Shown here piece after piece: positions 3,414 to 26,029 of a stretch of DNA of 64,000 nucleotides. The DNA comes from Diaphorobacter sp. HDW4B (lineage in GTDB: Bacteria; Pseudomonadota; Gammaproteobacteria; Burkholderiales; Burkholderiaceae_C). Where the stretch lies: NCBI RefSeq assembly GCF_011305535.1, contig NZ_CP049905.1, positions 1,188,001-1,252,000 of the forward strand. Direction: 5' to 3'. Both the position numbers and the translations under genes were made by a program. Each line of letters begins with the position of its first letter. The first letter of the stretch is position 1. The notes beneath the pieces are model-generated. The model did no database searches, was not told where the DNA came from, and saw only the letters and a program-made list of their open reading frames with translations.

Positions 3414-3439
3414 GCCGAACAGGTTCTGAGCACAAAAAC

Positions 3440-3471
3440 AAAGGGCAGTCCGTTTTCGGACTGCCCTTTTT
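3440..3471. terminator. Bidirectional rho-independent terminator between degQ-like gene and tatC
   Basis: AAAGGGCAGTCCG (3440-3452), loop TTTT, then CGGACTGCCCTTTTT (3457-3471): a perfect 13-bp stem with a T-run on both strands. It lies 26 bases past the protease stop and about 20 bases past the tatC stop on the other strand, so it serves both convergent genes. Confidence 0.9.
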
Positions 3472-5742: not shown

Positions 5743-6771
5743 TCACAGATTCTCGGATAGTTTGAGCGTGGGGCGAAGGCCCACGTCCGCAAAATGCTTG
5801 TGCAGCCACTGGGTGCCCGAATCACGGCCCAACTCGAACAGTTGCCGGATGAAGGCCATGTCCGTGCGCATCTTGCTGGCGGCGCCCAAGGGGGCGAGCA
5901 CTGCGCCACCGTCGATGCGGTGCATCAGCACATTCTTGTAGCGCCGGTTGTCCAGCTTGCCTTCCGCCAGCAGTCGGCGCACGAATTCGATGGCGCGCAG
6001 TTCCGCGAGCAGGCCAGCGTTGAACGTCACTTCGTTCACCCGCTCCATGATTTCCTGCGCGTCGTCGGGCAGGTTGTCGTGGTCGATGGGGTTGATCTGC
6101 ACGAGCAAGATGTCGGCCGCGTCGGTGCGGTAGATCAGCGGATAGATCGCAGGATTGCCCGAGTAGCCGCCGTCCCAGTAATGCTCGCCGTCGATCTCGA
6201 CCGCCTTGAACAGCATCGGCAGGCAGGCCGACGCCATCACCGCATCCGCGCTCAGACGCTTGCCGGTGAAGATCTCGCCGCGCCCGGTACGCACATTGGT
6301 CGCGCACACAAACACCTGCTTGGCGTTGGTCGCGCCGATCAGCTCGAAATCGACTTCTTTCTCCAGCAGCTTGCGCAGCGGATTGATGCCGAGCGGATTC
6401 ATCTGATACGGCGACAGCCACTGTGTGAGCATGTTCATGAACGCGCCCGCCGCCGGCATGGGCACGCCCCAGAGCATGGTCGAACCCATGGTGCCGACGC
6501 CTTCCCAGAGCTTGTGCAACGTCTCGCGCGCCTTGATGGCACCCGCGACCTGCGCCTCGTGCACATCCTTGTATTCATGCGCGGCGACGGCAAACCCGTG
6601 CGCCATTGCCACCGCGTTCATCGCCCCCGCGCTCGTGCCGCTCACACCTTCGATGCGCACGCGGCCGTCTTCGAGCAGCGCGTCGAGCACGCCCCAGGTG
6701 TAGGCACCGTGCGAGCCACCGCCCTGCAGCGCGAGATTCAGCGTCTTGAAACCTTGTTCGTCAGGCATCAA
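5743..6771 (-). CDS. Patatin-like phospholipase family protein
   Basis: A 342-residue patatin-domain protein. The oxyanion-hole loop is LALQGGGSHGAY (about 13-24), the nucleophile elbow is GTSAG with Ser47, and the catalytic aspartate is in DGGYSGN (Asp200), so the Ser-Asp dyad is complete. Such enzymes hydrolyse acyl esters of phospholipids or other lipids. No signal peptide is seen, so it is probably cytoplasmic or delivered by another route. Its start overlaps the 3' end of the upstream membrane-protein gene by 11 bases, which suggests translational coupling within the hisE-hinT stretch. Confidence 0.88.
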   Translation of the reverse strand: MMPDEQGFKTLNLALQGGGSHGAYTWGVLDALLEDGRVRIEGVSGTSAGAMNAVAMAHGFAVAAHEYKDVHEAQVAGAIKARETLHKLWEGVGTMGSTMLWGVPMPAAGAFMNMLTQWLSPYQMNPLGINPLRKLLEKEVDFELIGATNAKQVFVCATNVRTGRGEIFTGKRLSADAVMASACLPMLFKAVEIDGEHYWDGGYSGNPAIYPLIYRTDAADILLVQINPIDHDNLPDDAQEIMERVNEVTFNAGLLAELRAIEFVRRLLAEGKLDNRRYKNVLMHRIDGGAVLAPLGAASKMRTDMAFIRQLFELGRDSGTQWLHKHFADVGLRPTLKLSENL

Positions 6772-7596: not shown

Positions 7597-8004
7597 TTAT
7601 TTGTAGATGGACTCGGGATCTTTCAAGACCGGATCGACCGGCGTCCAACCGTTGCCGTCCCCATCCACGCCCTTCTCCAGACGACTGTAGAAGCAACTAT
7701 GGCGTCCCGTGTGACAGGCGATGCCCGGCTCATGCCCCGTCTGCGTGACCTTGAGCAGAATGACGTCGTTGTCGCAGTCGATGCGGATGTCATGCACGGT
7801 CTGCACATGGCCCGACTCCTCGCCCTTGAACCACAGCTTGTTGCGCGAGCGGCTGAAATACACCGCACGGCCCAGCTCGGCGGTCTTTTCCAGCGCCTCG
7901 CGGTTCATCCACGCAAACATCAGCACGTCGCCCGACGATGCTTCCTGCGCGATCACAGGCACGAGGCCCTGCGCGTCCCATTTCACTTGATCTAGCCAGT
8001 TCAT
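7597..8004 (-). CDS. hisI: Phosphoribosyl-AMP cyclohydrolase
   Basis: A 135-residue enzyme beginning [18 protein letters not shown]. It opens the adenine ring of phosphoribosyl-AMP in histidine synthesis. [11 protein letters not shown] supplies the Mg-binding aspartates, and [10 protein letters not shown] with an upstream Cys supplies the zinc ligands. The ATG at 8004 fits the family N-terminus better than the longer in-frame start at 8073. In many relatives this gene directly follows hisF; here it is 18 kb away, separated by two giant genes and two terminators. It therefore needs its own promoter in 8005-8071 or readthrough; no strong promoter was recognised there. Confidence 0.95.
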
Positions 8005-8071
8005 GTTGTCAATTGTCCGCGATTCGGGAAATCCACAATCGGAATTCGAAAACCTTCGCGTCCCATCAAGC

Positions 8072-8103
8072 AAAAAAAGGGCCAGCGATGATCACGCCAG
8101 CCC
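8072..8103 (-). terminator. Rho-independent terminator after giant gene 1
   Basis: Read on the minus strand: GGGCTGGCG, loop TGATCAT, CGCTGGCCC, then seven T. The 9-bp stem contains two G-U pairs. It lies 27 bases past the stop of the 3464-residue gene and upstream of hisI. Confidence 0.75.
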
Positions 8104-8129
8104 TTTCGATTCAAGCACGGGTGCTCTGC

Positions 8130-11100
8130 TTATCGACGCGCACGCCGGGTCTGCCGGTAAGCCAGACCCACCATCGCCAACGCCAGCAGAACCAACATGG
8201 TGCGTGAATCCACCGGCACCGCAACGGCGTCCTGCGGCTCGTTCACGATCGGGTCGCTGTCGGTCGACGTGCATGGCGACGAGGTCAGACAGGTGCCGCC
8301 GGTCACCGTGGCGGTGTTCTCCGCCTGCTCGCCCGCCTTGCCACTCACCGTAGCCGTGACCTTGTAGACCACATTGCCACCCGCCGCCACCGTGATGCCC
8401 GTGCAGGTCAGACCCGCGCAGGAACCGGCGTTGGAACCACTGGAGGCAGTGCTACCCACGATGCTCACATCCTTGAGGCCGCTGACGACCGTGTCGGTCC
8501 AACTGATGCCGGTCGCGTCGGTCGTCCCCGGATTGGAGATGGTCACCGTGTACGTCGTCGTGCTGCCCACGACCAGCGAGGTCTGGTTGTTGGTCTTGGT
8601 CACCATGGGATCGGCCAAAGCATTCACCTTGGTCGGCACGCTTGCGCAATGCATATCACCCGCAGCGCAGCTTCCGGGCACCGGTGGATTTCCGCCGTTG
8701 TACGGATCACCACCGCCGCCGACCGAGGCCAGATTGCTCGGATTGCCCACGGCAGCCGAAGTCACCTTGACCGGCAACTCGATCACCGACGACACGCCCG
8801 CCGCCAACACGCTGGCGTTGGTGCAGGACACTTGCTGACCGGCGACCCCACAGGTCCAGCCATTGCTGCTGCCAGCGGTGGCCGTGAGGCCAGTGGGCAT
8901 GTTGTCGGACACCGTCATCACCGAACCGTTCGTGCTCGCCGTGCCGTGGTTGGTCACGGTCATCGTGTACTTGGCACCGGTTTGATCGACCGTCCACGGG
9001 CCGTTGCTGGTTTTCACCAGACCCAGACTCGGCACGCCCGGCAAGGCCGCGCAGCCGGATGCATCCGTGGCAGTGGTGCCCACAATGCTTGCAGCATTGA
9101 ATGCACCACTGCCAGCGCTGCCGGTACACGCGACCTGCGTCACGCCTGCCTGCATGGTGAAGGTGAGCGCAACCACATAGCTGTGCGTAGCGCCGACCGG
9201 CAGCACCTCGTTCGCAGCGCTGATCTGCGTGAGCGCGCCGTTGACCGGAGGCGTGAGCGGCGTGGCAATCGCGCTGCTGGACACTCGCGCAGTCCAACTG
9301 TTCAACACCACATCCGCCGGAAAGCCGGGCGTGTCGCTGAGCGTGTAGTGGCCATCGACACCGCCCAGGTTGGTCACGTCGATCTGGTACTCGGCCACGT
9401 ACTGGCCCGCAACGCCCGTGGCAGTGAAGGTCGGGTTCGACTTGCTCACCACCAGATCCGCCAGCGCAAAAATGCGCGTGATCTTCTGCGCGCAGTGGCC
9501 CGGATCGTTCGGATCCAGACTCAAGCAGCTCGTTCCGGGCTCTGGCGCGTCACCGTCGTTGAACGGATCACCACCACCGCTCACCGATGCGTGATTGGTC
9601 ACATCGGCGTTCAGGCCACCTGCGAGCGCTGCAGTCGTCACGTTGACAGGCAGCACGATGGAACTGCTTTGACCGGCACCGATGACCAGATCATGGATGC
9701 TGTGACAGGTCACGCTGCGGCTCACGAACGAGCAGCTCCAGTTGGCCGAGACCAGCGGATCCGTCCACTTCGGCTCGATGCCGAGCGGCATCACATCCTT
9801 CACGTTGATGAGGATCTCGCCCACCGACGCGGCAATCGCGCTGCTGTTGTTCACCGTCAGCGTGTAAGCGGCGTCTGCCTGCCCGACGACCCAGGGGCCA
9901 TTGTCCGTCTTCACGATGTGCAGGTCCGGCGCATTCACCACGGTGGTGATGCTGGACTTGCACGACGCATCCATCGGGCACAGCGGATCGCCACCGCCAT
10001 AGGCCTGCGCGTTGTTGGTCACATTCGGGGCCGCCGCAGCGGTCGGCGTCACCGGAATCCTGAACGTCACCGACGCATTGACCGCCAGCGAAGCGGAGGA
10101 CTCGCAGGTCAGTTGCTTGACCAGCGTGCCCGTCGCAGAGCATCCCGGCTCGCTCGTCAGATCGCCCAACGTCATGCTGGCTGGCAGCGTGTCCACGACG
10201 GTGATCTTGCCGCTCGTGGCCGCCGTTCCCACGTTGGTAACCTTCAGCACATAGGTCGAAGCCACACCCACCGAGAACTCGGTCATGCCCGTGCTCTTTT
10301 CAAGCAGCAGGTGCGGCGCGTTCACCGGCGTGCTGATGGTTGGCGCGCAACGTGTGGGCAGGCTGGCCGTGGCCGTTCCATCCACACACAGCGGATCACC
10401 ACCGCCCGTGACACCGGCCTGATTCACCATGGTCTGCTTGTCGGCCGAAGCCTTCGGCGTGACACCGATGACGATGCTGGCACTGGCCTTGACCGCCAAA
10501 GCGGAGACCGTGCAGGTCACCGTCTGACTGCCCGCCGCCACCGCCGCGCAGGTGGCCGAAGTCGGCGTGACCGAGTCGATGGTCAACCCCGCAGGCACCA
10601 CGTCGGTGATCGTGATCACACCCGTGGTCGCTGCCGTGCCGTTGTTGGTCACAGTGAGCGTGTAGCTTGCAGCCTGACCCACCGTGAACGCACCAGCGTT
10701 CGCCGTCTTGGTCATCTCCAGCTTCGGCGCGGTCACCGGGTCATCTGTCTTGCCCGTGCAATGCAACTCGCTCGGGCAAGTGGAGTCACCTGTGTCGCTA
10801 TTCGCAATCGCCTTGTTCACTTGCGACGTGCCGTCCGCGCTTGCCAGCGGCGTGACCGGAATCGTGAACGACTTGCTGCTGCCCGGCAGCATGCCCGCGC
10901 TCACGTTGCAGGTCACCACATTGCCGTTGGCCGAGCAACCGCTGTTCGTGAGATCACCCACCGCGAGGCCCAAAGGCACGGTGTCGGTGATCGTTCCCGC
11001 CAAGGTCGCGGCCTGGCCCTTGTTCTCGACCGTGATCGTGTAGCTCGTGGGCTGACCGACCACAAAGCTGCTGTCGAGCTTCTTGCTCACCGCAAGCTGC

Positions 11101-14100
11101 GGACGATCGACGTTGGTCTGCACCGTGACCGAGCAAGGGCTTTGCGTCGTGCACGCCGTGCTGCCGCCCGTCACGCTCGCCGTGTTGACGGCAGGCGTGA
11201 CGACCGTGTTCGCCACCGCCACATGCGCAATAATCACCGGAGCCGAAACGTTCGGCAGCAACACATCGCTCGTCGTGCATGTCAGATCCGTTCCACTCGC
11301 CACCGAGCAAGTCCACACACTGTTCGGTTCGATGGAGGTGATGGTGATGCCTGCAGGCATGCGGTCCGTCACCGTGATCGCACCGCTCGTGCTGTTGGTG
11401 CCGTTGTTGCGCACCTTCAGCGAGTAGATGCCGTTCTGGCCCACGGCAAACGTGGTTGGCGCAGCTTCCTTCTCGATCACCAGCGCAGGCGTGCCTGCAT
11501 TCTTGCTGGTGACGGGCGGAGACTCCTTCTCGCACGGTGTCGTCGTGCAGGTCACGCCGGTTGGTGGTGTCACCGTGGCCTTGTTGACGATGTCGCCCGT
11601 GGCATTGCGCGCAGCAGTACCTGTGATGGTGATCGTCAGCTTCTCGCCCATGGCAAGCGCCACTCCGGTCAGCGACACGTTGTTCGTCGTGCCGGTCGCA
11701 TTGGCCCCGCAGCTTCCCGTGCCGGTGGCCACGCAGCTCCATGCACTCACCTCGACTTCGACCGGCACAACATCCAGCACCGATGCACCGCTGATGCTGC
11801 TCGGGCCATCGTTGAACACTTCAATCGTGTAGTTCAGCGGCTGGTTGGGCACGTACTGCGTGCCCTGCTCCGAGACCTTGGTGATGCGCAGATCGGCCTT
11901 CAAGCCCACCGGCGTCGTGACGCTGGCGCAGTGCAGATCGCCCACGGCGCAAGTGCCCGGAACAGGCGGCTCGCCACCGTTGTTCGGATCACCGCCACCA
12001 CCGACGGAAGCAACGTTCACCACACCGGTCGAGCTCACCAGAGTGCTGCTCAGAGTCACCGGCAGCGTGATGAGCGATGGCGTGCCAACAGCCAACGCAG
12101 CCGTGGTCTCGCAGGTCACGGTCTGACCGATCACAGTGCAAGTCCAACCATTGCTGGTGGTGTTCACAGCGCTGACACCTGTGGGCAATGTGTCCACCAC
12201 CTTGGTGGTGCCGGAAGTCACGGCATTGCCGACGTTCGTCACGGTCAGCACATACTGCGCACCGGTTTGTCCGGCACTCCACGGGCCGTTGCTGCTCTTT
12301 GCCAGAGTCAGATTGGGCAGGCCGGGCAGATTGCCGCAAGCGCTGGCTGCAGGCGCTGCCGAGCCGATGCTCGCCGCGTTGTACGCGCCATGGCCTAGAG
12401 TGCCGGAGCATGTCAGCGATGTCGCCGCCGTGCTTGGGCTGGCCGTGAACGCAATCACCACCACATAGCTGTGCGTGCCGCCTGCAGCAATCGCGGTGGC
12501 CGTGGCGCTGATCTGATGCGTCGCGCCATTGATGAGCGCAGGCAACGGCGCATTCACGCTGCCATTCGTGCTGTTCACTGTCCAACCGTTCAGCACGGTG
12601 CCTGCCGCAAAGGCCGGCGTGTCGGTCAACGTATACGTGCCGGGCAGGCCGCCGGTGTTGGAGACCGTTACGGTGTACGTGGCCTGGTATTGCCCCAGCG
12701 ATGTCTGCGCCATGCTGTTGAAGACCTTGGTGATGCCCAATGCCGCTGGCATGTTGACCGTCGTCGACGTGTTTGCGCAATGGCCGGGGTTGCCCGCATC
12801 CAACGCGGTGCACGCAGTTCCCGGAGCGGGTGGCATGCCGCCGTTGAACGGATCGCCGCCACCGGCCACCGAGGCATGGTTGGTCACGCTGCCCGTCACA
12901 CCTGTGCTGATGGCCGTGGTCAACACATTGACCGGCAAGGTGATCGAAGCCGAGCCGCTCGCAGCAATGCTGGCATTGCTTGTGCAATTCACCGTCTGCC
13001 CGTTGGCCGTGCAGTTCCATGCACCGCTCATCAGCGTGCCCACCCACTTCGGTGTGATGCCCATCGGCAGTTCGTCCACCACAGCGATCTCTCCGATGGT
13101 CGCCACCAGCGTGCTGGCATTGCTGACCGTGAGTTGGTACTGCGCATTCGACTGCCCCACTTCCCACGCAGCAGTGTTGGACTGTTTGCTGATCTGCAAC
13201 TGCGGCGCGTTCACCGTGGTCACGGTGGTCGATTCGCAGTTCGCCTTGTTGGCCGGGCACAGCGGATCGCCGCCGCCGTAGACCACGGCCTTGTTGGTCA
13301 CAGTAGGTGGTATCGACGAGGCTGCCGCCGCCGTTGGCGTGACGGGGATGGTGAACCTCACAAAACCCGCCGGAGTGAAATCCGTCGCGGCCGCAAGCAC
13401 TGCGCTGCTCTCGCATCGCACGCTCTGTCCGCTGCGGGTGCAGCCCGTCGGCATGGTACCCAGCGTCAGATGCGCAGGCACTTCGTCGATCACGGTGATC
13501 AGCCCGGCAGTCGGCGCGGTACCGATGTTCGTCACCGTCAGAATGTAGTTCGAGAGAACGCCGACCTTGAAGCCTTGCGTACCGGCATCGGTGGTCTTGG
13601 TGATCTTCAATTGCGGCGCGTTCACTGGCGTCGTCACCACCGGCGCACAGCTTGCGGGCAAGGCGCTGACAGGCACCGAGGCCACGCACAGCGGATCGCC
13701 GCCGCCTGTGGCCGTCGCCTGATTGCGCAGGGATTGATTGATCACGCTGGCTTGCGGCGTGACCAGAATGGCGACTGTCGTCTCTTGATCGACGGCCAGA
13801 CCCGCAGCCACCGTGCAAGTCACTTTCTGGCTGTCTGCCGGATCCACAGCGCAAGCACCCGCAGGTTCGAAACCATCGATGCGCAGGCCCGAAGGCACCA
13901 CATCGGTGATGGTTGCGGGCAGCGTCGTGGTTGCCGTGCCGGTGTTCTTTAAAGTCAGCAGGTAACGTGCCTGCACTCCCACCGTGAAGGCCACCGGACT
14001 CGTCTCTTTCTTGAGCTCAAGTTGCGGTGCGCTCACCGGATCGTTGGTGATGCCCACGCATCCCGTATCGGACGGACAGGTCAGGTCACCCGTGGTGTTG

Positions 14101-17100
14101 TCGGCGGTCGCCTGATTGGTCAGCGTCTTGCCATTGGCGGTGGCCAGCGGCGTCACGGGAATGACAAAGCGCTTGGTCTGTCCGGGAGCGAGCGTGCTCG
14201 GCACCGCACAGGTCACGACTTGACCACTCACGCTGCAACCACCCGCTGCATCCAGCGTACCGATGACGAGATCGGCAGGAACGGTGTCGGTGATCGTGCC
14301 GCCCAGCGTGTTCGCATTGCCTTCGTTCGTCACGTCGATGAAGTAGCTCGTCTGCACACCGACGACGAAAGCGTTTTCGACCTGCTTGCTCACCTTCAGC
14401 TTGGGGCGATCCACATTGGTCGTCACGCTGTCCGTGCAGGTGAGCGAAGTGCCGCAGTCCGAGCCGCCGCCCACCACCTGCGCCGTGTTGCTCGCGGTCG
14501 CGCCGACCGCGTTCCCCACCAGCACCTCGGCATTGATCACCGACGCCACCGATTGGGGCAACAGCGCCACCGTGCTGAAGCAGGACAGCTGGGTGCTGGT
14601 CGTCGCCTGGCAATTCCAGTTTTCACCAGTCACCTTGGTGGTGTCGATGGTGATGCCTGCAGGCATGGTGTCCGTCACCGTGATCACGCCACTGGTGCTG
14701 CCTGTGCCCGTGTTTTTGACCGTGATCGTGTAGAGACCACGGCCACCCACTGCAAAGGCCGAAGGCGTCGCCTGCTTGTCGATGACCAGTACCGGCTTGC
14801 CGCTGTTCTGATTCGTCACCGTATCGGTCAGCACACAGGCCGTCGTCGCACAGGGCGTGGACGTCGGAGGCGTCACCGTTGCCGTGTTGATGATGTCGCC
14901 CGTCGCCGAGCGCTGCGCCATGCCGGTCACGGTGATCGTCACGCTCTTGCCAGCAGGGATCTTCACGCCCGTCAGCGACACGTTGTTGTCGGTGCCCGAG
15001 GCGTTCGCTCCGCAATCTGCGCCCGTCGCGGGAGTGCAGCTCCAGAGACTGACGTTGACCTTTGAAGGAACCGTGTCCTGGATGCTTGCACCATCCACAT
15101 CGCTGGGACCGTCATTGGTCACCACGATCTGGTAGTTCAGCGACTGGTCCGGTACATAGCTCCCATCAGGCGTAGCCGTCTTTTCGATGCGCAGATCGGC
15201 CTTTTGCACCACGGTCACGGTGCCTGTCGACGGGTTGCACTTCGTGTCGGAAGACGTGCATGCCGGATCCCCGCCACCGCTCAGATGTGCCGTGTTGCTG
15301 GCACCGCCAGCAACCGCCGTGCTTGCGACCTGAACGGGGATGTCGATGGTGTACGTGCCATTGGCAAGTCCCGAAGCCAAGGTGCAATTCGGACCGATGG
15401 CACTTCCGGAAGTGTTGCCGCAGGAGGCCAGCGTTCCACCACCCGTCAGTTGCGGCGCACCCGAAAGCGTGACGCCCGTGGGAAGCGTATCCGTCAACGC
15501 AATCGTCTCTGTGGTGGGGCCATTGGTCACCACCACGTTGATCTGGTACTTCTGATTGCTGGCACCCGCCACCAACGTGGTCGGAGACGCCGTTTTGGTC
15601 GCGGCGATATTGGGGTATTTCGGCGTGTTGGTGAACGTGCAAGTGATCTCGTCACCGGCTTGCGGCGTCACGCTCACGCTGGTGCCCGTGCCGGAAGCAG
15701 GCACGGCCGTGCCACCAGCGGTAGCGTTGGTGCATGCGAAGGTCGAGGTGTAGCGACTCAGGTCGGCAAGAGGCGAGCCCGCCGCCGCTTCGCTCAGCGT
15801 GTATGCCGTGCCCGCGTTCACATCGACCGCACCCGTGCTCACGCTGTTGGCGTTTCCAGACGAGGTGTTGCTTGCAACGCCACCACTGATGGACACGGTG
15901 AACTGGTCCGTGCTCAGCAGACGCCCAGCCATGTTTTTCGACACCGTCAGGCGTGTGCGCTGCACCGTGTTTGTCACGCTGCAGGAGTTGCAAATCGGCG
16001 TCGAGCCACCACCCGATGCGACCACACTGTTGTTGACCGTCGCTCCCGCACTGGCAAGCACGGTCGCCGTGTACGTCACCGAGTAGGTACCGATGCCCGT
16101 TCCTGAAGGCAAGGAGCAATTCAGACTACCAGTGCAGACCAGCGCCGGACTGTTGCTCACGATGCTGCCGAACTGAAGGCCCGCGCCCAACGTGTCCGCC
16201 AAGGACAACGCACTGGTCAGCGGCGCATTGCTGACATCCGCACTCAGAACGTAGGTGATAGTGGAGCCGACCGGAACCGCGCTGCCTGCCGCCGGATTGG
16301 CGCTCTTGGAAACGTTGACGACCGGAACCGCCACAGTGGTCTGAGCCGTATCGGTATTGGGTGCTGGCGCATTGGCGGTTTCATTGGTCGCCGCAATCAC
16401 GGTCGTGATGGGAATCGGCCCCGGGTTGCCTGCCGCAACCACATAATTGAAATTGAACAGCAGGGTCTGGCCGACTGTGAGTGTGGTCGGCATTCCGCTG
16501 AAGCTCACCTTGCAGGTGGCTGCGCTGTATGTCGCCATCACACCCGTCGGGAGCAAAGTGAATGTCACAGCGGCGGGACAGGTCTTCGTCACACCGGAAC
16601 CACCCAAGGTGCCAATCGTCACTTGATAAGTGACGCCCGTGGCAGGAGCACTGCCAGCGTTGTTGAACGAGAACGAGCCGTAGGCCGTACCGCCCGAGAG
16701 AACACTCGGCGTGACAGACACTTGCGTGCTCACGTCGACGGGCGTGCTGGGCTCCAGAATCTCGATGGTCGGAATGAACACCTGCGACTTCTCCAGCGCC
16801 CAGAGATCGAGTCCCTTGCCATCGCCAAAATACTGGTCGCTCGCCGTGCAATCGGTGTTGGCGTTGTTGCTGCCCGCCCACTTGCGGTAGTAAATGCTGC
16901 TCGATCCGGAGCCGGACAGCACGGTCGATGAATTCAGGCCTATCAACGAGTACACAGGCGACGGTTGAACCTGGTCCTTGCCCGCCAGAACACTGCCGCA
17001 GAGGTGACCATTCAATGTCCCGATCACGGTGCCATTGGCCGTCTTGTAGCCTCGGTCGTCGTAGTACACCGTGTTGTCGCCAACGCTGGGGCCGTTGAGC

Positions 17101-18524
17101 TTGGTGAGAATCGGACCGCCATTCACATTGCCTTCCACGTCGGCCATGGGAAAGTGGATTTCGCCGTTTCGACCAACGATCTGATACTTGTAGTTCCCAG
17201 CCGGAAAGGAGTTGCCGTTGTTGTCCCGTCCATCCCAAAGGATGTTGTGATCTCCGGTTTCAGCAATGCCGGTCAACACGCGGTTCTGCGTATTGGCGGG
17301 GTCGAAATCCGTGCCGTTTCTGCTGATGACGATTTGATATGTCTGGGTGTTCTGCACACTGAACGTGAACGAGCCACCAGACGATACGGTCGTGGAGTTG
17401 TTGCCAAAGTTTCCGACGAAGGCCGGATTGGTGAGCACCGGCGTCTTGGGTGCCAAGGGAAAAGACAACGCCGTCAGAACCCGTGCGACCTCGGCTGCAT
17501 TCGGGCCATTCTGGGAGACATCGCTGAAGAAGATCGGGTACTCGGGAGCCTGCGCCTTGATTCCGGCAGTGCCTGAAGCGCCACCCGTAACCGCGCCTCC
17601 TGTCCCCCGGTAGTCCCGATACAGGGGCGAGCCATTGGTATCCAGAAAGCCTTTGCTGTTGGCATAGAAAGCTGCGCCGTTGGGGTCGATGCCCACGAAC
17701 TGCTGCTTGTAGCGATAGCCGTCGCTGGACACGTAGTACAACGTGGTGGCAATGCGGTAGGCCCGATTGGTCAAATCCGAAGCTGCCCCGCTGTTGTTAC
17801 CAGTGGCCACGGTCCACGCATAAGTGAAGACACGCCCGTTGATATCGACAAGAGATGTCGTGTCGCTGCTGCGCACAGTGACATCCCAGGCGGACACTGC
17901 ATTGCTTTGTGGCGACGGAGGATCAATCAAGGCCCCGGATCCCGAGTCCCCACCGAACAAGACACCATAGATGCCCGTGGTTGGTGCTTTGTACGAGCAT
18001 GCCTTGTAGCGATCGGCATTGCCGCCATTGCTGCCCGAAACGCTCAATGGACCTGCCAGCTCAGCGTTCCGGGTCTCGATCAACCCATCCTTTGCGGACG
18101 TGCATGTGAATGTGGCCGTGCCTGGAATGGTCTCCAACCCTTTGCTGCCAAAACTCTGCGGGCTGTACAGCTTGATTTCGCCCTTTCCAGCGCTCGAGCG
18201 ATTGCGAGAGCCCAGCAGAATGTGCTCATCCTTTTGCGCATACACGTAAAAAAACTGCCGCCCACTGACGACGCCGTGAAACGTGTTGTTGGTACTCAAC
18301 CCCATCACCGCACGACCGGTCGTATCGTTCGTCTCGCCAGACGGATGCAGAGTTCGGCTGCCCTCGGCATGCACATTGCCACTCCACCCCAGCAGCAGCC
18401 ACAACAAACAACCAGCGAGAACGGCCATCGCCGCATCTTTCAAGCATGTGGCTGCAAAGTGTCTGGATATGGAGCGCACGCGAGCAGGAGTAATCCACTC
18501 GCGCAGTGGTTGAGTTGCCGTCAT
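8130..18524 (-). CDS. Giant secreted DUF11-repeat surface protein, 3464 aa (giant gene 1)
   Basis: A very large repeat protein, apparently intact. Residues about 30-54 form a signal peptide (CLLWLLLGWSGNVHA, cleavage before EGSRT) after a long basic N-region. Residues 55-720 are a non-repeated beta-rich region; HNILWDGRDNNGNSFPAGNY near 435 resembles a FlgD-type Ig domain. A DUF11 module at about 732, a different SpaA-like module at about 857 and a DUF11 module at about 970 follow. Then come two consecutive blocks of eight DUF11 modules (1108-2207 and 2208-3301) and one last module at about 3302. Modules start with L-x-x-x-K, contain Y-x-x-x-V-x-N-x-G and TDxxP, and often end GGGDPxC; most have paired cysteines. 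The C-terminus has VPVDSR, a TM and a RQTRRARR basic end, resembling PEP-CTERM/IPTL-CTERM sorting tails. A surface or adhesive role is inferred; the ligand is unknown. Confidence 0.85.
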   Translation of the reverse strand: MTATQPLREWITPARVRSISRHFAATCLKDAAMAVLAGCLLWLLLGWSGNVHAEGSRTLHPSGETNDTTGRAVMGLSTNNTFHGVVSGRQFFYVYAQKDEHILLGSRNRSSAGKGEIKLYSPQSFGSKGLETIPGTATFTCTSAKDGLIETRNAELAGPLSVSGSNGGNADRYKACSYKAPTTGIYGVLFGGDSGSGALIDPPSPQSNAVSAWDVTVRSSDTTSLVDINGRVFTYAWTVATGNNSGAASDLTNRAYRIATTLYYVSSDGYRYKQQFVGIDPNGAAFYANSKGFLDTNGSPLYRDYRGTGGAVTGGASGTAGIKAQAPEYPIFFSDVSQNGPNAAEVARVLTALSFPLAPKTPVLTNPAFVGNFGNNSTTVSSGGSFTFSVQNTQTYQIVISRNGTDFDPANTQNRVLTGIAETGDHNILWDGRDNNGNSFPAGNYKYQIVGRNGEIHFPMADVEGNVNGGPILTKLNGPSVGDNTVYYDDRGYKTANGTVIGTLNGHLCGSVLAGKDQVQPSPVYSLIGLNSSTVLSGSGSSSIYYRKWAGSNNANTDCTASDQYFGDGKGLDLWALEKSQVFIPTIEILEPSTPVDVSTQVSVTPSVLSGGTAYGSFSFNNAGSAPATGVTYQVTIGTLGGSGVTKTCPAAVTFTLLPTGVMATYSAATCKVSFSGMPTTLTVGQTLLFNFNYVVAAGNPGPIPITTVIAATNETANAPAPNTDTAQTTVAVPVVNVSKSANPAAGSAVPVGSTITYVLSADVSNAPLTSALSLADTLGAGLQFGSIVSNSPALVCTGSLNCSLPSGTGIGTYSVTYTATVLASAGATVNNSVVASGGGSTPICNSCSVTNTVQRTRLTVSKNMAGRLLSTDQFTVSISGGVASNTSSGNANSVSTGAVDVNAGTAYTLSEAAAGSPLADLSRYTSTFACTNATAGGTAVPASGTGTSVSVTPQAGDEITCTFTNTPKYPNIAATKTASPTTLVAGASNQKYQINVVVTNGPTTETIALTDTLPTGVTLSGAPQLTGGGTLASCGNTSGSAIGPNCTLASGLANGTYTIDIPVQVASTAVAGGASNTAHLSGGGDPACTSSDTKCNPSTGTVTVVQKADLRIEKTATPDGSYVPDQSLNYQIVVTNDGPSDVDGASIQDTVPSKVNVSLWSCTPATGADCGANASGTDNNVSLTGVKIPAGKSVTITVTGMAQRSATGDIINTATVTPPTSTPCATTACVLTDTVTNQNSGKPVLVIDKQATPSAFAVGGRGLYTITVKNTGTGSTSGVITVTDTMPAGITIDTTKVTGENWNCQATTSTQLSCFSTVALLPQSVASVINAEVLVGNAVGATASNTAQVVGGGSDCGTSLTCTDSVTTNVDRPKLKVSKQVENAFVVGVQTSYFIDVTNEGNANTLGGTITDTVPADLVIGTLDAAGGCSVSGQVVTCAVPSTLAPGQTKRFVIPVTPLATANGKTLTNQATADNTTGDLTCPSDTGCVGITNDPVSAPQLELKKETSPVAFTVGVQARYLLTLKNTGTATTTLPATITDVVPSGLRIDGFEPAGACAVDPADSQKVTCTVAAGLAVDQETTVAILVTPQASVINQSLRNQATATGGGDPLCVASVPVSALPASCAPVVTTPVNAPQLKITKTTDAGTQGFKVGVLSNYILTVTNIGTAPTAGLITVIDEVPAHLTLGTMPTGCTRSGQSVRCESSAVLAAATDFTPAGFVRFTIPVTPTAAAASSIPPTVTNKAVVYGGGDPLCPANKANCESTTVTTVNAPQLQISKQSNTAAWEVGQSNAQYQLTVSNASTLVATIGEIAVVDELPMGITPKWVGTLMSGAWNCTANGQTVNCTSNASIAASGSASITLPVNVLTTAISTGVTGSVTNHASVAGGGDPFNGGMPPAPGTACTALDAGNPGHCANTSTTVNMPAALGITKVFNSMAQTSLGQYQATYTVTVSNTGGLPGTYTLTDTPAFAAGTVLNGWTVNSTNGSVNAPLPALINGATHQISATATAIAAGGTHSYVVVIAFTASPSTAATSLTCSGTLGHGAYNAASIGSAAPAASACGNLPGLPNLTLAKSSNGPWSAGQTGAQYVLTVTNVGNAVTSGTTKVVDTLPTGVSAVNTTSNGWTCTVIGQTVTCETTAALAVGTPSLITLPVTLSSTLVSSTGVVNVASVGGGGDPNNGGEPPVPGTCAVGDLHCASVTTPVGLKADLRITKVSEQGTQYVPNQPLNYTIEVFNDGPSSISGASVLDVVPVEVEVSAWSCVATGTGSCGANATGTTNNVSLTGVALAMGEKLTITITGTAARNATGDIVNKATVTPPTGVTCTTTPCEKESPPVTSKNAGTPALVIEKEAAPTTFAVGQNGIYSLKVRNNGTNSTSGAITVTDRMPAGITITSIEPNSVWTCSVASGTDLTCTTSDVLLPNVSAPVIIAHVAVANTVVTPAVNTASVTGGSTACTTQSPCSVTVQTNVDRPQLAVSKKLDSSFVVGQPTSYTITVENKGQAATLAGTITDTVPLGLAVGDLTNSGCSANGNVVTCNVSAGMLPGSSKSFTIPVTPLASADGTSQVNKAIANSDTGDSTCPSELHCTGKTDDPVTAPKLEMTKTANAGAFTVGQAASYTLTVTNNGTAATTGVITITDVVPAGLTIDSVTPTSATCAAVAAGSQTVTCTVSALAVKASASIVIGVTPKASADKQTMVNQAGVTGGGDPLCVDGTATASLPTRCAPTISTPVNAPHLLLEKSTGMTEFSVGVASTYVLKVTNVGTAATSGKITVVDTLPASMTLGDLTSEPGCSATGTLVKQLTCESSASLAVNASVTFRIPVTPTAAAAPNVTNNAQAYGGGDPLCPMDASCKSSITTVVNAPDLHIVKTDNGPWVVGQADAAYTLTVNNSSAIAASVGEILINVKDVMPLGIEPKWTDPLVSANWSCSFVSRSVTCHSIHDLVIGAGQSSSIVLPVNVTTAALAGGLNADVTNHASVSGGGDPFNDGDAPEPGTSCLSLDPNDPGHCAQKITRIFALADLVVSKSNPTFTATGVAGQYVAEYQIDVTNLGGVDGHYTLSDTPGFPADVVLNSWTARVSSSAIATPLTPPVNGALTQISAANEVLPVGATHSYVVALTFTMQAGVTQVACTGSAGSGAFNAASIVGTTATDASGCAALPGVPSLGLVKTSNGPWTVDQTGAKYTMTVTNHGTASTNGSVMTVSDNMPTGLTATAGSSNGWTCGVAGQQVSCTNASVLAAGVSSVIELPVKVTSAAVGNPSNLASVGGGGDPYNGGNPPVPGSCAAGDMHCASVPTKVNALADPMVTKTNNQTSLVVGSTTTYTVTISNPGTTDATGISWTDTVVSGLKDVSIVGSTASSGSNAGSCAGLTCTGITVAAGGNVVYKVTATVSGKAGEQAENTATVTGGTCLTSSPCTSTDSDPIVNEPQDAVAVPVDSRTMLVLLALAMVGLAYRQTRRARR
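8621..11903 (-). repeat. Eight-module DUF11 superblock, copy B (residues about 2208-3301 of giant gene 1)
   Basis: Starts at KADLRITKVSEQGTQYVPNQ and runs through modules beginning LVIEKEAAP, LAVSKKLDS, LEMTKTANA, LLLEKSTGM, LHIVKTDNG, LVVSKSNPT and LGLVKTSNGPWT. Module order and type match copy A one for one. Length about 3.28 kb. Confidence 0.85.
11904..15203 (-). repeat. Eight-module DUF11 superblock, copy A (residues about 1108-2207 of giant gene 1)
   Basis: Starts at KADLRIEKTATPDGSYVPDQ and runs through modules beginning LVIDKQATP, LKVSKQVEN, LELKKETSP, LKITKTTDA, LQISKQSNT, LGITKVFNS and LTLAKSSNGPWS. Length about 3.30 kb. The copies have diverged in protein sequence, but some DNA stretches, such as the CCTGCAGGCAT region at 14655 and 11347, remain close. 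Confidence 0.85.
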
Positions 18525-18754
18525 TCAAATGTCCCGATTGCTTTGGATATCGGGCAACACATGCTTGCGCCGTGCCTTGCCCCACATCCCTGCGCCGCAC
18601 CACCCCCTTCATCACGAAAACGCCAAGGCGTCAGAGGGGCTTGCGGCATTCGTCTGGCGAATCACCCTGCAAGGGCCTGCTGGACAGGTCCATTGAGGAA
18701 TGACGGGATGCGACGCTCATTCACCGACATCAGTCGTCGAAAATGATCACATTC

Positions 18755-18768
18755 AGTCATTTATGACT
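18755..18768. repeat. Palindrome AGTCAT-TT-ATGACT upstream of giant gene 1
   Basis: Perfect 6-bp arms with a 2-base centre. It lies just downstream of the candidate -10 hexamer on the minus strand, a position suited to a repressor operator. Confidence 0.45.
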
Positions 18769-18779
18769 CATGTGGGTGC

Positions 18780-18807
18780 ATGTTACTCAAAAACACACAT
18801 TTTTCAA
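18780..18807 (-). promoter_or_regulatory. Candidate sigma-70 promoter for giant gene 1
   Basis: On the minus strand TTGAAA (plus 18802-18807), a 16-base spacer, then TAACAT (plus 18780-18785). This matches 5/6 and 4/6 of the consensus. It would give a leader of about 250 nt. It is a prediction from hexamer match only. Confidence 0.35.
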
Positions 18808-19003
18808 CAACTGACGCCAATGTCGGACGTCGCTCCGGGGGAAGGAAGCGGTGCACTTTTGTGTTTCCATCCACCGGGACGTGGCTTCCAGCAACCGTTT
18901 CACATTTATTAACAGTGATCGGTGCTTGGTGTAAAAATTTCGTCTTCTGAATTGAGGTAGCCGCAGCCATAGCGGCTCACGACGGGCATTTGTATCAAGG
19001 AAC

Positions 19004-19059
19004 AAAAAAATCGCCTGCTGGCAAGGCACTTGTTCAGTGCGATGCCAACAGGCGATTTT
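19004..19059 (-). terminator. Rho-independent terminator after giant gene 2
   Basis: AAAATCGCCTGCTGGC (19007-19022) pairs with GCCAACAGGCGATTTT (19044-19059) with one G-U on one strand, loop of 21 bases. The A-run at 19004-19010 becomes a T-run on the minus strand. It lies 37 bases past the stop of giant gene 2. Confidence 0.8.
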
Positions 19060-19095
19060 CAGATTCGGCGCCGCGAGGGGCGCCTGGAAGCCAGA

Positions 19096-22000
19096 TCAGT
19101 TCCGGCGCTTGCCAGACATTCCCACTTGTCCAAAGGAACGCGCCGCCAATCCCATGAGCAGCAAGGCGAGAGCGAACAGCGCCCAGCGCTCGTTCACAGG
19201 GACCGGAACCGTCACGGCCGGCACATCGCCCACCGTGACCGCAGTAGCGCCGCTGTTGTTGGCCAAGTTGGGGTCGTACAGATCATGCACCGCCTTTGTC
19301 GTGATGGAGAAGCTGCCCGCCGTAGTCGGCGTGAAGCGTGTCGTGCACGAAACCGCTTGCCCGGACGCCAGCGTGGCAACGGGAACCGATGGAGTGCAAG
19401 TCGTGACGGCCGTTGCAGGCGCGCCGCTGATCTCGCAACGCACATTGGTCGTGTCTGCGGGACCGGCGTTCAAGCAGGTGGACGTCACCACCACCTCGGA
19501 GCCGACGGACACGGCCACCGTCGGCGGCGTGCTGACCTGAACATCGGCCTGAGTGGATGGTGTCGTCACCGAGCACGTCGCGCCACAACTCCCGGCAGCG
19601 CTGCTGCTCACCGTGTTCACGACGGACGCACCCGTCAACGTGCTGTCCACCTTGACCGAGAACTGCACCGATACAGTGGCTCCACCCGCCACCGGCACAG
19701 TCTGCGTGCAAGTGCTGCCTGCTGCGGCACACACCGGTCCGGGCGCGGCGCTCCAGCCCTCTGCAGATCCGACATAAGTCGTGCCTGCAGGCACGGTTTC
19801 GGTCAGATCGGTCGAGCCAGCTGTGCCACCCGCGTTGGTCACGCTCAGTTGGTAAGTCAGCTTGTCCCCAGGCTTCACTTGGTAGCCGCTTGGTACGCTC
19901 GCATCGTTCACCTTCACCAGCGACTTGACCACGTTGAGGGCCGAAGCCGTGTTGGCCTGCACGGTCCGCGCTTGCGTGTTGTTCAGCAAGTTGGTCTCGA
20001 AGCTGTCGGTACGCGCTGTCACCACCGCGTCGATCGACATCGCCTGCGTTACGGGGAACGACAGTGTGCACGTCAACATGTCTCCCGGATTGAGTGTTTT
20101 CGGTGCCTCGCATGTACCCATCATCGTCGCCTTGAGCAAGGTATTGATCACAAGCTCGCAGCTTCCGTTCACCGCCAGGATCGGGCTGTTGTTGCTGCAG
20201 ACACCCACGATCGTCACCGTGTCGCCCACCACAATGGAAGTCGGGAACTGTGTGATCACTGCCTGCACATCCGTTACCGAGCTGTTGACCACCGCCGTGC
20301 AGTTCGTGCCCGTGCAGTTGTTCGCCGCATCGCTGGCCACGGTGTTGCTGATGGTGGCGCTCGTCATCGGCGCCAGCACCTCGACGGTGAAGCGCACGTG
20401 TTCTGTCGTCACGGTGCTGCCCGCTTGGGCTGCCACGCTCACGCTTTGCGTGCAGGTGCTGCCTGCGGCCGTGCACACGGAGGTGGCGGGAGTGGTGCTC
20501 CAGCCCTCGCCCGTGCCGCTGCCTGTGCCGAGGTAGCTTGTGCCTGCGGGCACGGTCTCGGTGAGGGTCGTGCTGCCTGCCGTGCCGCCGGTGTTGCTCA
20601 CGGCGATGTCGTAGGTCAGCTTGTCGCCGATCTGCGCTGCGTAGCCTGTGGGCACGGCGGCTGCGTTGACCTGCACCAGTGTCTTGACCACGTCCAGTGC
20701 GGCCGGGGTGTTCACCACCACGCTGCGGCTGGAGGTGTTGTTGCCGGGCTTGTCGTCATACTGGTCTGCCGCCGCTGTGGCGCTCACCGTGAAGGTGCCC
20801 GTCGTGGTCGGTGTGAAGGTGGTCGTGCACACGATGGTGGCGTTCACTGCGAGGCTGGCCACGCTCGCGCCGGTCACGCCGCCTGACACGCAGGTCGTGA
20901 CGGAGCCCGCCACCGTGGTGGCGCTGCCCGTGACCGTGCAGCTGGCGTTCGTCGCCACTTGCGGGCCTGCGTTCGTGCAGGTGCTCGTGAGCGTCACGGA
21001 CGTGTTGGTCGTGGCCGTGGTCACGCCTGTCACGCTCGCCTGCATGTCTGCCTGCTCGGCCACTGTCGTGACCGTGCAGCTCGCGCAGTTGCCTGCGCTG
21101 CTGGTGGCGGTGTTGACGATGCTCGCCGCCGTGCCGGGCTTGGCCACGCTCACGGTGAAGGTCCGTGCGATGCTCGCGCCTGCGCCCACGCTCACGCTCT
21201 GCGTGCAGGTGCCGCCGGGCGTCGTCGCCGTGCAGCTCCAGCCTTCAGAGGTACCGCTGTAGCTCGTGCCTGCGGGCACGGTCTCGGTGAGCGTCGTGCT
21301 GCCGACTGTGCCGCCCGTGTTGTTCACGTTCAGTGTGTAGGTCAGCACGTCGCCCGGCTTGGCCAGGTAGCCTGCGGGAACGGCTGCGCCATTGACGGCC
21401 GTGAGGGCCTTGGTGGTCGCCATCGCTGCCGGGGTGTTCACCGTCAGCGGCGTGCTGTCGATGTTGTTGCCCGGCGTCGGGTCATAGCTCTGGCTGCTGG
21501 CCGTGGTGGTGATCGTCACCGGGCCGGTCGTGGCCGGGGTGAACGTGATGGTGCAGTTGAGCGTCGCGCCGCTGGCAAGGCTTGCCGAGGTCTGCGCCGG
21601 GTTACAGGTGTTGGTCACGTTGGTGGCGTCTGCGGGCACGCCCGAGGCCACGCAGCTGGCGTTCACCGCTGCGGCCGTTCCGTTGTTCACGCAGGTGCTG
21701 GTGACGCTCACCGGCACGCCCGCTGTCACGGGCTGGGACGGGCCGCTGATCGCCTGCATGTCTGCCTGTACGCTTGGCGTGGTCGCCGTGCAGTTGCTGG
21801 CCGTGCAGCTGCCTGCGGCATCGCTGGCCACGGTGTTGGTGATGTTGGCGCTCGTCATCGGTGCCAGCACCTCGACGGTGAACTTGGCGTGCTCTGTCGT
21901 CACGGTGCTGCCCACTTGCGCTGCAACGCTCACGCTCTGCGTGCAGGTGCTGCCTGCGGCCGTGCACACGGAGGTGGCGGGAGTGGTGCTCCAGCCCTCG

Positions 22001-25000
22001 CCCGTGCCGCTGCCCGTGCCGAGGTAACTTGTGCCTGCGGGCACGGTCTCGGTGAGGTTCGTGCTGCCTGCCGTGCCGCCCGTGTTGCTCACTGCGATGT
22101 CGTAGGTCAGCTTGTCGCCGATCTGCGCTGCGTAGCCCGCCGGTACAGCGGCCCCGTTGACCTGCACCAGTGTCTTGACCACGTTCAGTGCGGCCGGGGT
22201 GTTCACCACCACGCTGCGGCTGGAGGTGTTGTTGCCGGGCTTGTCGTCATACTGGTCTGCCGCCGCTGTGGCGCTCACCGTGAAGGTGCCCGTCGTGGTC
22301 GGTGTGAAGGTGGTCGTGCACACGATGGTGGCGTTCACTGCGAGGCTGGCCACGCTCGCGCCGGTCACGCCGCCTGACACGCAGGTCGTGACGGAGCCCG
22401 CCACCGTGGTGGCGCTGCCCGTGACCGTGCAGCTGGCGTTCGTCGCCACTTGCGGGCCTGCGTTCGTGCAGGTGCTCGTGAGCGTCACGGACGTGTTGGT
22501 CGTGGCGGTGGTCACACCGGTCACGCTCGCCTGCATGTCGGCCTGCTCGGCCACTGTCGTGACCGTGCAGCTCGCGCAGCTGCCTGCGCTGCTGGTGGCG
22601 GTGTTGACGATGCTCGCCGCTGTGCCGGGCTTGGCCACACTCACGGTGAAGGTCGGTGCGCCGCTCGCGCCTGCGCCCAGGTTCACGGTCTGCGTGCAGG
22701 TGCCGCCGGGCGTCGTCGCCGTGCAGCTCCAGCCTTCGGCCGTACCGCTGTAACTTGTGCCTGCGGGCACGGTCTCGGTGAGCGTCGTGCTGCCGGTCGT
22801 GCCACCCGTGTTGTTCACGTTCAGTGTGTAGGTCAGCACATCACCCGGCTTGGCCAGATAGCCTGCGGGCACGGCTGCGCCATTGACGGCCGTGAGGGCC
22901 TTGGTGGTCGCCATCGCTGCCGGGGTCACCACCGGCACAACACCTGTCGAAGGATCACATGCTTGACCCGTTGCGCTTGTACAAGCGGGATCACCGCCAC
23001 CGCTCAAGTTTGCGGTATTGGCACCGCCTGCGGCGACCGCACTTGCAGTCACAGTGACCGGAATCGTGATGTTATAAATACCATTGGCCAAGCCGGTGGG
23101 CAACGCGCAAGTTGCGCCCAGATTGCTACTGCCCGCACTGGTGGTACAACCGCTCAGCGTGGTACCGGTTACGGTCGGCGCACTTGCAAGGGTGATACCC
23201 GTCGGGAAGGTATCGGCAATGGTGATCGGCGCAGTGGTGGGACCATTGGCCACGGTCACCGAAATCTGGTAGTTCTGATTGGCCCCGCCTGCGAGAAACG
23301 GATTGGGTGAAGCCGTCTTGGTAGCGGTCACGGTCGGTGGGGAATTGGTGATGGTGCACGCAATCTGGTCACCCGCCTGCGGTATGAACTCACTCCATGT
23401 CCGGGTAGTTGAAGCATCAGTACCACTTCCAGAAGGCAAGACCGTTGTCGAGCCGCTGGTCGCGTTGGTACAGACCAGGTTGGATCGGTAGCCCGTGGGC
23501 ACGCTGTCTGCGGATGTCGCCAACGTTTTTTTCGCCTCGGAAAAGCTCATCGTGTTGCCCGCAGGCACCGTGATCTCCGCCGTTGACGCCGTCTGATTCG
23601 TGCCCGTTGTCAGAACCGTGCCATTGTCCGGTGGCACGCCACCTGAGTTGATGCGCACCTCAAATTGATCGGCTGTTGCACTACGACCAGCGGGCAGGCT
23701 CTTGGTCAATTGGACCCAGACCGGGGTTGGGATGTTTTGACAAGCCCCATCGGCAGTGAAGCTGTTGGTGCCGTCCGAGGCGTTGGCCGTGTTACGCAAG
23801 CCGCCTGAACTCCCTGAGCAGACATCCGCCGCAGAGCTGCCTGGATTGATGGTGTAGCGGAAAACCACGGTATAGGTATCAGTGCCGCGATTGGCGGGAG
23901 TGGCTGATCCGCTGAGCGTCCGTCCTGTAACAATCGTCCAAGGAGCTGATGTCACTATGGAAGGCGATGCGTATGTCGGACTTCCCCCACTTCCAGTCCC
24001 AGTAGTGACTCGACTGACTGTCATGCTGTTGATGGCAACGTGTGAGCCGAAGTTGGGCACATCGGTCAACGAATAGGTAATATTGGCCCCGCTGCCGCTA
24101 TTGCTGACGCTATTCTTGACCGCGATGGTGTAGGTGATGTCGTACTGAGTGAGCGAGCCATTTACCGACGCCATGGAGACGAACGACTTGTTGATGCTCA
24201 AGGGCGCGTCGTCATCCACGATGGTATAGGCCGACGTGCTTTGAACCGGGCCACCGCAGGTCGTGTTCGAGGCTACTGTGTAAGCAGGTCCCGACTGAAT
24301 GGCGAACTGGATGTCTTTGTTCAGTGTCTCTACAGTTGTGTCGTTACTGATCGTGACCGGCAAGGAAAACAAGCTACCCGCTGTTGTCCCGTCATACGTG
24401 CCGACAGGAATATTGACGGAGAGCACTCTGGTGCCGCTCGTTGTTGAAAAGTCCGTCGGTGAGCCCGCACTCGCGCCAGGACCGTTGGCAGCCCCACCAG
24501 TGATCCAAACCGTCACGTTGAATGCCGTGGACACCGTCCCATTCACCCGAATTTTTGGAATGCTTCCACTGCCCGCCGCCTCAAAACCCGAACCACTGGC
24601 AACCGAAAAATCAACGATTGGCTTCAGCGTGACTTGGACGTTGTCAAGGAAGTTGCCTGCATCAATCCCCCCAGGCACATCAGTTCCATCTGCTGCTGAC
24701 ACGGCTTCGAAACCAATATTCGTGCCGACCGAAGTACCCGTATATGTAAAGCTTCCGGAGTAAAGGGCCCACGTCTGATCCGGTAACGGATGCGAAGCGG
24801 TGATCGGACCTAACGCTGGAACCTGTGAACTCGTAGAAATCACACCATTGCGATTCGTCCCCACTTGGGCAATAGTCGTGTTTTCTCCAACGATCAACTT
24901 GGCAACGTCAGGTGTGTTGATCCCTTTGCGTCCTCGGTGGTAGAAACTCCAGCCCACTGTTTCATTCTGCAAAAGACAGATGTTCTGCAACAGTCGGGCT

Positions 25001-25392: not shown

Positions 25393-25913
25393 GAAGTACC
25401 CCCTTGGTTCCCCTGACGCAACGGCTCTGATCACACTGTTCTTCATATCTATTCGCTGTTTCCAAGGTTCCCAAGGCCACGAGAACGCTGTTCTCATAGG
25501 TCTTCCATCCAACTGCCGGAGGGTTCTCCGCAACGCGCCCTGCAGTCACTCGCGCACAGCCTTGGACGATCTGTGCGTGACGGATATATGAGTTTTCGGT
25601 GAGGCTTTTTGCAAGCCCGTTTTTATCGACAAGCCGGGTTTATAACTAAAAACTAACGCCGTGTGCTAATCATGACAAAATACCAACATTTGCATAAATA
25701 TGTGATATTTGGTATCAGTTGTCAATTGGTGCTCATTTATGATCAACATCACTCATTTCAGCTGATTCGATCAGTTCTGATTTTTCACTCTGCCGCCGAT
25801 CACTCAATAGGGATGCTCTTGCGATGGCTGTTGTGACGTTCATATCAATTTTCATAGCGTCGTTCGCTTACTCCCAAAGCATCACCGTTGTTGATCAGCG
25901 TCCGCGCGCAGAC
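25393..25913 (-). other. Leader and A/T-rich upstream region of giant gene 2
   Basis: Non-coding stretch between giant gene 2 and the terminator after hisF. The part from about 25620 to 25860 is markedly A/T-rich. Inverted repeats: GAGAAC-GCT-GTTCTC (25481-25495); GTCAC/GTGAC and GCACAG/CTGTGC arms forming one long hairpin (25545-25581); ATACCAA/TTGGTAT (25680-25686, 25709-25715); CTGAT-TCG-ATCAG (25762-25774). The SD region (CCAAGGGGG on the minus strand) can pair with CCTTGG copies upstream in the leader. No known riboswitch class was recognised. Confidence 0.55.
25697..25725 (-). promoter_or_regulatory. Candidate sigma-70 promoter for giant gene 2, overlapped by a palindrome
   Basis: On the minus strand TTGACA (plus 25720-25725, perfect -35), a 17-base spacer, then CATATT (plus 25697-25702, 4/6 to the -10 consensus). 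The ATACCAA...TTGGTAT inverted repeat (25680-25715) covers the spacer, the -10 and the likely start point, a good place for a repressor. It predicts a leader of about 300 nt. Confidence 0.5.
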
Positions 25914-25947: not shown

Positions 25948-26029
25948 GATTGGGGGTGAGCCGTGTTGCTTGCTGGCTAAGGTAGTTAGCTGCGAGCCTT
26001 GGGTGATCTGCTCAATGCGCTAAATCGCG

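Follow-up and report, generated by a model that had tools for sequence, protein, structure and literature searches.

The protein described here is most closely related to CLIPPER stalks, whose DUF11 domains (PF01345) are isopeptide stalk domains of fibrillar adhesins; in the solved example, 9ifr from Acinetobacter silvestris B9T28_05395, a Lys–Asn isopeptide bond lies near an Asp and the domain resists heat and protease (PMC12617251, accessible part). DUF11 is also classed as a stalk domain in the accessible part of PMC9210967. We analysed a giant gene of Diaphorobacter sp. HDW4B lying in a 64,000-nucleotide stretch of DNA (hereafter the window; G000:C1:1188001-1252000, from contig NZ_CP049905.1 of assembly GCF_011305535.1), whose source genome measures 6.2 Mb and comprises two contigs. 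The open reading frame (ORF) occupies window positions 8130–18524 on the minus strand, as do its modules, hisI, hisF and the second giant gene given below, and encodes 3464 amino acids uninterrupted by a stop codon. Its product resembles the CLIPPER stalks described in PMC12617251, as far as that source is accessible, in its DUF11 matches (PF01345, 370 bits over 16 stretches, above the cut-off; TIGR01451, 153 bits), in a Lys, Asp and Asn triad, each residue held in a fixed column by all 19 of its DUF11-type modules, and in a terminal Cys pair (last Cys in 19/19 modules, preceding Cys in 17/19, two further Cys columns in 15/19). It differs from them in that 16 of its modules form two copies of an ordered cassette and one further module belongs to SpaA_3.

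Three other systems share features with this protein, as judged from the accessible parts of the papers describing them. Periscope proteins (PMC8201768) also carry a head on a long stalk of repeats whose number varies among relatives, but theirs are highly identical repeats, whereas here the copies share 45–60% protein identity and the unit is eight unlike modules. The super-repeats of the titin A-band (PMC10665226) are likewise block-duplicated, ordered rows of unlike β-sandwich domains in which equivalent positions are most similar; titin is an intracellular eukaryotic muscle protein of Ig and FnIII domains, and we claim no homology. DDxP proteins (PMC7730722) are comparable as large modular bacterial proteins of several module types, but their 'growth by insertion' is proposed to be endonuclease-driven with target duplications, whereas the copies in the window's gene are whole tandem cassettes.

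Since a self-BLAST of the whole 3464-residue protein returned only the trivial match, we delimited the modules manually, each beginning with the motif that bears the conserved Lys. This gave 20 modules, named N1, Npre, N2, A1–A8, B1–B8 and C1, all of DUF11 type except Npre (SpaA_3). A first-pass annotation of the DNA had proposed that 16 of the modules fall into two consecutive series of eight, with the same module types in the same order, at 8621–15203. Module comparison bore this out: block A covers residues 1108–2208 (1101 amino acids; 11901–15203) and block B residues 2209–3302 (1094 amino acids; 8619–11900), so that the measured extent runs two bases beyond 8621. As proposed, KADLRI opens both series (residues 1108 and 2209), SNGPW occurs in the last module of each (2078 and 3173), and the special long modules pair, GLPN (2068) marking the A7/A8 junction and GVPS (3163) the B7/B8 junction. 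Counterparts are 57% identical for A1 (14799–15203) and B1 (11493–11900), 50% for A2 (14409–14798) and B2 (11106–11492), 55% for A3 (14031–14408) and B3 (10731–11105), 55% for A4 (13620–14030) and B4 (10320–10730), 60% for A5 (13209–13619) and B5 (9933–10319), 51% for A6 (12750–13208) and B6 (9465–9932), 45% for the divergent long modules A7 (12321–12749) and B7 (9036–9464), and 57% for A8 (11901–12320) and B8 (8619–9035).

The pairing is consistent across methods. When each block module was compared with the other 19 modules, its counterpart was the top match in all 16 cases and was preferred over every module of its own block (16/16). The in-register pairing gave a sum of 2770, first among 40,320 possible pairings (next 2547, median 1026), and counterpart pairs scored Z = 24–34 against shuffled sequence. 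Equivalent positions are thus more alike than neighbours, as in a super-repeat. In the best tree of the 20 modules A1–B1 to A8–B8 are all sisters, with strong support for six of the eight pairs and without it for pair 4 (45/77) and pair 8 (38/85); the tree is weak deep down, with 10 of 17 inner branches open and long branches for Npre, C1 and N1. We found no case of modules within a block being closer to each other than to their counterparts, the nearest approach being A6–A8 (288) against the weakest counterpart pair, A7–B7 (291). DNA self-comparison recovered the block offset twice, over 1435 and 436 columns at 65–67% identity (offsets 3303 and 3288). Chance similarity of the blocks is rejected by the shuffles and by the permutation of all pairings.

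The two copies in the window are old: in 50-codon windows the DNA of blocks A and B is 48–69% identical, no tract being near-identical, and at this level an assembly artefact is not credible. Best-match pairing, tree and permutation also reject single-repeat expansion as a full account of the two blocks. The earlier claim that the protein grew by one large block duplication and not by single-repeat expansion nevertheless stood only in part. Two co-linear homologous blocks mean that the length of the protein includes a block-sized copy step, but the row predates its second copy, later events recur and growth by single modules is likely to have come earlier. Some members of the row resemble one another (A6/A8 51% identity, A4/A5 and A3/A5 44%), so the eight-module row itself probably first arose by single-module expansion.

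We searched six same-genus genomes, one per species, comprising the window's genome and G001–G005, for the row, whose positions we call M1–M8. Relatives' modules were typed with HMMs built from seven same-genus blocks, the window's included, and their gene lengths are stop-to-stop frames with no start codon chosen. Block matches at E < 1e-100 occurred in five of the six genomes; G004 gave weak matches of at best 2.7e-13. A second gene of the window's genome (L011, 2189 amino acids, at 5.33 Mb) reads Npre-N2-[M1–M8]-C1 with one copy of the row. In G003, a one-copy gene of 1826 amino acids adjoins a two-copy gene of 3151 amino acids with the arrangement Npre-N2-[M1–M8]x2-C1. G001 has two cassette copies in broken reading frames, G005 one full copy preceded by M7–M8 of another at a contig end, and G002, which has a head like that of the window's gene, a short row of M1–M5 and M8. 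Scanning named genomes yielded 51 loci, and 14 of them were module-typed. Ordered M1–M5 was present in seven typed loci, one of them the G005 contig again, and not in the other seven; besides G005 these were Comamonas koreensis, Comamonas sp. B21-038 (in two frames), a Pseudomonadota metagenome-assembled genome (MAG), Ottowia thiooxydans, Tahibacter soli and a Pseudolysobacter MAG. Tahibacter soli has three shorter rows and many M5-like modules, 'M5-like' being loose because M4, M5 and M8 win by narrow margins in the far rows (Tahibacter, Pseudolysobacter and others; for example, 108 against 104). Since the row is found in L011, the G003 genes, G001 and G005, and as shorter rows farther off, we conclude that the eight-module row is older than the second copy in the window's gene.

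Outside the genus a close cassette looks rare in the samples searched. An M1–M2 profile at E 1e-25 matched 12 of 399 genomes order-wide and 2 of 369 class-wide, each including the window's own, and the low scores of the other matches (92–150 bits, against 385–398 for the own genome) lead to this view. Relatives in the same bacterial order also grow by one- or two-module steps: giants in G302, G174 and G397 (L162–L167) repeat in steps of ~429, ~801 and ~819 bp, respectively, and their DUF11-like frames reach 7061 (G302), 6125 (G397) and 5396 (G174) amino acids within the stretches examined. In the window's genome as a whole, DUF11 matches at E 0.001 number 96 and are spread over about 20 frames, several of which have ends of IPTL-CTERM-like type; another of its DUF11 genes has an 831-bp repeat unit.

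The order of the row might have been kept because its modules do different work, such as providing position-specific sites for partners or self-association, and not through copying of whole cassettes. M1 and M7 are indeed distinct types hardly matched by other module models, the order is retained in Tahibacter and Pseudolysobacter, in another bacterial order, and the titin A-band offers a precedent for position-specific conservation (PMC10665226, accessible part). In-register copying alone would preserve order, however, with no need of selection, and members of the row are dropped or multiplied: G002 and the locus L045 lack M6–M7, Tahibacter repeats M5-like modules and C. koreensis has other domains at the place of M7. 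We consider an order held by division of labour unlikely.

We then compared whole blocks, calling blocks A and B of the window W.1 and W.2 (or W_A and W_B). W_A and W_B are sisters in a seven-block tree (86/92), and W.1 and W.2 are sisters in a tree of M1–M5 from 18 blocks (63/77). In a 16-block tree, G002 lies beside W.1 (56/27), and forcing W.1 and W.2 together costs just 0.33 log units (p 0.46). The letter make-up of W.2 is odd. Alternative pairings were not rejected either (W.1 with G003.1, p 0.11; W.2 with G003.2 and L011, p 0.27). Because the tests reject neither a duplication within the gene nor pairing across genes, the window's pair may have arisen by a single duplication inside this gene. 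Alternatively, the second block may have come from another gene by unequal crossing-over or fusion, the partners being one-cassette genes that are tandem or paralogous. A one-cassette and a two-cassette gene are indeed adjacent in the hisF–hisI gap of G003. The two G003 blocks are themselves not sisters (rejected, p 3.7e-7): the second groups with the L011 block (100/100) and the first with the one-cassette gene beside it (82/84). L011 and G003 also differ in a patchwork manner, as if their parts had separate histories, with about 55% identity in head and Npre and 74–90% in N2, second block and C1. The sister positions and the small cost given above speak against a foreign second block, as does a search of the own genome, in which neither block had a close living donor gene; we regard this origin as a tentative option.

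Later events are recorded in relatives. The G001 repeat spans 3233 columns at 90% identity with an offset of 3243 and begins, by arithmetic, within ~15 bases of the M1 start; its copies are 96–100% identical over fifteen 150-bp windows (~2.25 kb) and 69–81% thereafter, with one further window unaligned. Rows 1 and 2 of Tahibacter share 70–85% identity over three windows and then 95–100% over eleven, and the G003 copies share 95–99% in M6 against 57–87% elsewhere. These near-identical in-register tracts are the product of conversion or partial re-duplication, and those of G001 and Tahibacter, as later duplication or conversion, mean that the history was not a single event. The G001 cassette gene (L032 / L118) is split into several frames, and its two copies share the position of the break; the cause may be decay that was duplicated together with the block, or faulty sequencing of the repeat, and the near-identity of the G001 copies may be an assembly artefact.

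The site of these genes is shared within the genus. In the window, two giant genes fill positions 8074–26029, the gap between hisI (phosphoribosyl-AMP cyclohydrolase, 7597–8073, NCBIfam match over cut-off) downstream and hisF (26030–26977, TIGR00735 over cut-off, family match from residue 58) upstream, within a his-tat gene run. The second giant gene (19096–25533; 2145 amino acids), recognised by ORF, profile and DNA self-comparison, carries DUF11 and SpaA_3 modules and a 1491-bp block repeat of its own, with 1154 bp at 94% identity (offset 1491), and this repeat is recent. It alternates two module kinds; by eye and tblastn, modules like them also occur in the tail of G002 and, in C. koreensis, between M6 and the final modules. 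The same his-tat run includes a patatin-like gene (5743–6771) with a weak match, under the cut-off, to CBASS phospholipase models. A cassette gene stands beside hisI in five of the six same-genus genomes (window, G001, G002, G003 and G005), with hisF on the far side in four (window, G001, G002 and G003) and the contig ending in G005; in G004 only 82 bases, and no gene, separate the hisF match from the hisI match. We also examined 30 hisF loci, from 40 genomes with a match, in a wider sample. hisI lay within 1.5 kb downstream in 17 and not in 13, the own genome and G003 included; at the other 11 loci, 8–15 kb of downstream sequence contained hisI in six (once reversed) and not in five. No ORF of at least 300 amino acids on the hisF strand, the only strand searched, matched the module models at these 11 loci. 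The cassette at hisF–hisI is therefore a feature of this genus in our sample. As a general hot spot for cassettes the gap is rejected: it varies in the wider family, but at the loci and on the strand examined the module models found no match there.

The heads in front of these stalks have their own distribution. The 16 N-terminal regions compared sort into unrelated groups: the window's head pairs with that of G002, L011 goes with the two G003 genes, C. koreensis with B21-038 and Ottowia with L045, and Tahibacter stands on its own. The groups are joined only by weak partial matches of 27–40%, mostly in module-like parts. The window's head (residues 54–732; 16329–18365), which contains a FlgD_ig-like stretch at residues 420–454, was found in three of 349 family genomes: its own, G002 (66% identity) and G024 (49%). 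In G024 it forms a 1011-residue frame with no recognised module and the same HA/EGSR junction as in the window's gene. The window and G002 are most alike in the head and only 45–55% identical in N2, row modules and C1, a pattern opposite to that of L011 and G003, which indicates that head and stalk have different histories.

Taken together, the layout is likely to be that of a surface-anchored, putative fibrillar-adhesin-like protein. It would start with a signal-peptide-like segment (residues 1–53; 18366–18524), read by eye as a hydrophobic stretch ending HA before EGSR. Next come the head and the 20-module, predicted cross-linked β-sandwich stalk, comprising N1 (733–855; 15960–16328), the prealbumin-like SpaA_3 module Npre (856–969; 15618–15959; PF20674, 1.2e-25), N2 (970–1107; 15204–15617), the two blocks and the last module, C1 (3303–3427; 8244–8618). 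The C terminus (3428–3464; 8133–8243), VPVDSR followed by a hydrophobic segment and a basic tail, would be an exosortase-type sorting signal. Its NF033207 score is comparable to that of some IPTL-CTERM proteins of the same genome, which also holds an XrtH gene (244.9 bits). A stalk of repeated known stalk domains, by which fibrillar adhesins are recognised, is present. N1 aligns to 9ifr (E 1.3e-12), a solved CLIPPER domain, with Lys, Asp and Asn in matching places; the Lys–Asp spacing of 9ifr is 34 residues counted on the alignment and 33 by the printed numbers (715, 748) in the accessible part of PMC12617251. A model of A6–A8 (pLDDT 81, pTM 0.51) found 9ifr as its best VIA match (Z 13.8, r.m.s.d. 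2.2 over 118 residues in A6). In the alignments used for the 16-block tree the triad holds in 323 of 330 lettered cells, from 16 rows for M1–M5 and fewer for M6–M8.

Several observations weigh against this picture. The triad is absent from Ottowia M6 and L045 M8, and the Asp from one G001 fragment; the bond is itself absent from some DUF11 domains (PMC12617251, accessible part). An M6–M8 profile searched against solved sequences gave one match, at E 0.52, and none that was significant, so the case for isopeptide bonds in the block modules relies on the N1 alignment and the model fold. The top Foldseek rows for the A6–A8 model are integrin alpha chains at a TM-score of ~0.25, with no adhesin. 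The C-terminal signal lies under both curated cut-offs (midcut_by_XrtH 29.4 bits, IPTL_CTERM 13.8 bits), the AF2 model of the head is too poor to use (pLDDT 40), and conversion is seen in relatives only, given the lack of a near-identical tract between the window's blocks. A Pfam search of the head to E 1 returned FlgD_ig alone and no known adhesive family or domain. That last result would also suit a protein that is no adhesin but a structural polymer of envelope or matrix, its head binding the cell's own matrix or other copies. A head at the far end, a stalk of repeats and a sorting signal at the C terminus resemble the layout of fibrillar adhesins in the accessible parts of PMC9210967 and PMC12617251, however, and we think such a polymer rather improbable.

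On the adhesin-like reading, each module would be locked by an internal Lys–Asn isopeptide bond and disulfides, as judged from sequence, and the locked modules would make a long, stress-resistant rod holding the head away from the cell. At an assumed 4–5 nm or so per module, a stalk of 20 modules would measure roughly 80–100 nm. Two copies in register can pair only at intervals of an entire cassette, so recombination would add, remove and homogenise whole cassettes as its unit, and the heads carried by a common stalk would be swapped. Length itself could instead be the selected and variable trait, in the manner of Periscope proteins, placing the head at differing distances. The cassette number of one or two in same-genus genes, with three rows in Tahibacter, fits length selection, and G024 has the head with no recognised cassette module at all. 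Periscope repeats, however, are highly identical and vary among strains (PMC8201768, accessible part), whereas these copies have diverged, and copy-number differences between species do not demonstrate selection; we therefore hold selection on length to be doubtful. Returning to the adhesin-like reading, the row seems to serve as a building block of long surface fibres, which are probably cross-linked internally. More speculatively, it may be a bacterial counterpart of titin-like super-repeats, in which stalk length has an isopeptide-locked eight-module cassette as its working and exchangeable unit. In-register recombination at the fixed hisF–hisI site would add and delete such cassettes and keep them uniform, with the heads in front of them swapped.

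DUF11/CLIPPER stalks are already known, usually from descriptions of similar repeats following one another, and length variation is also of a known kind. What stands out here is that eight unlike modules in a set order make up the unit that repeats, its order recognisable across Comamonadaceae and Rhodanobacteraceae, that its copy number changes in whole rows and that it is common to proteins with unrelated heads. In a literature search, from which subscription papers were out of reach, we found no description of such a bacterial cassette. It is thus the reusable ordered row, together with its site and the exchangeable heads, rather than a single duplication, that is of interest, and the locus offers a testable case of very long bacterial surface proteins changing length and tip separately. 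If the titin-like cassette reading is true, the genus would sample heads and reach independently.

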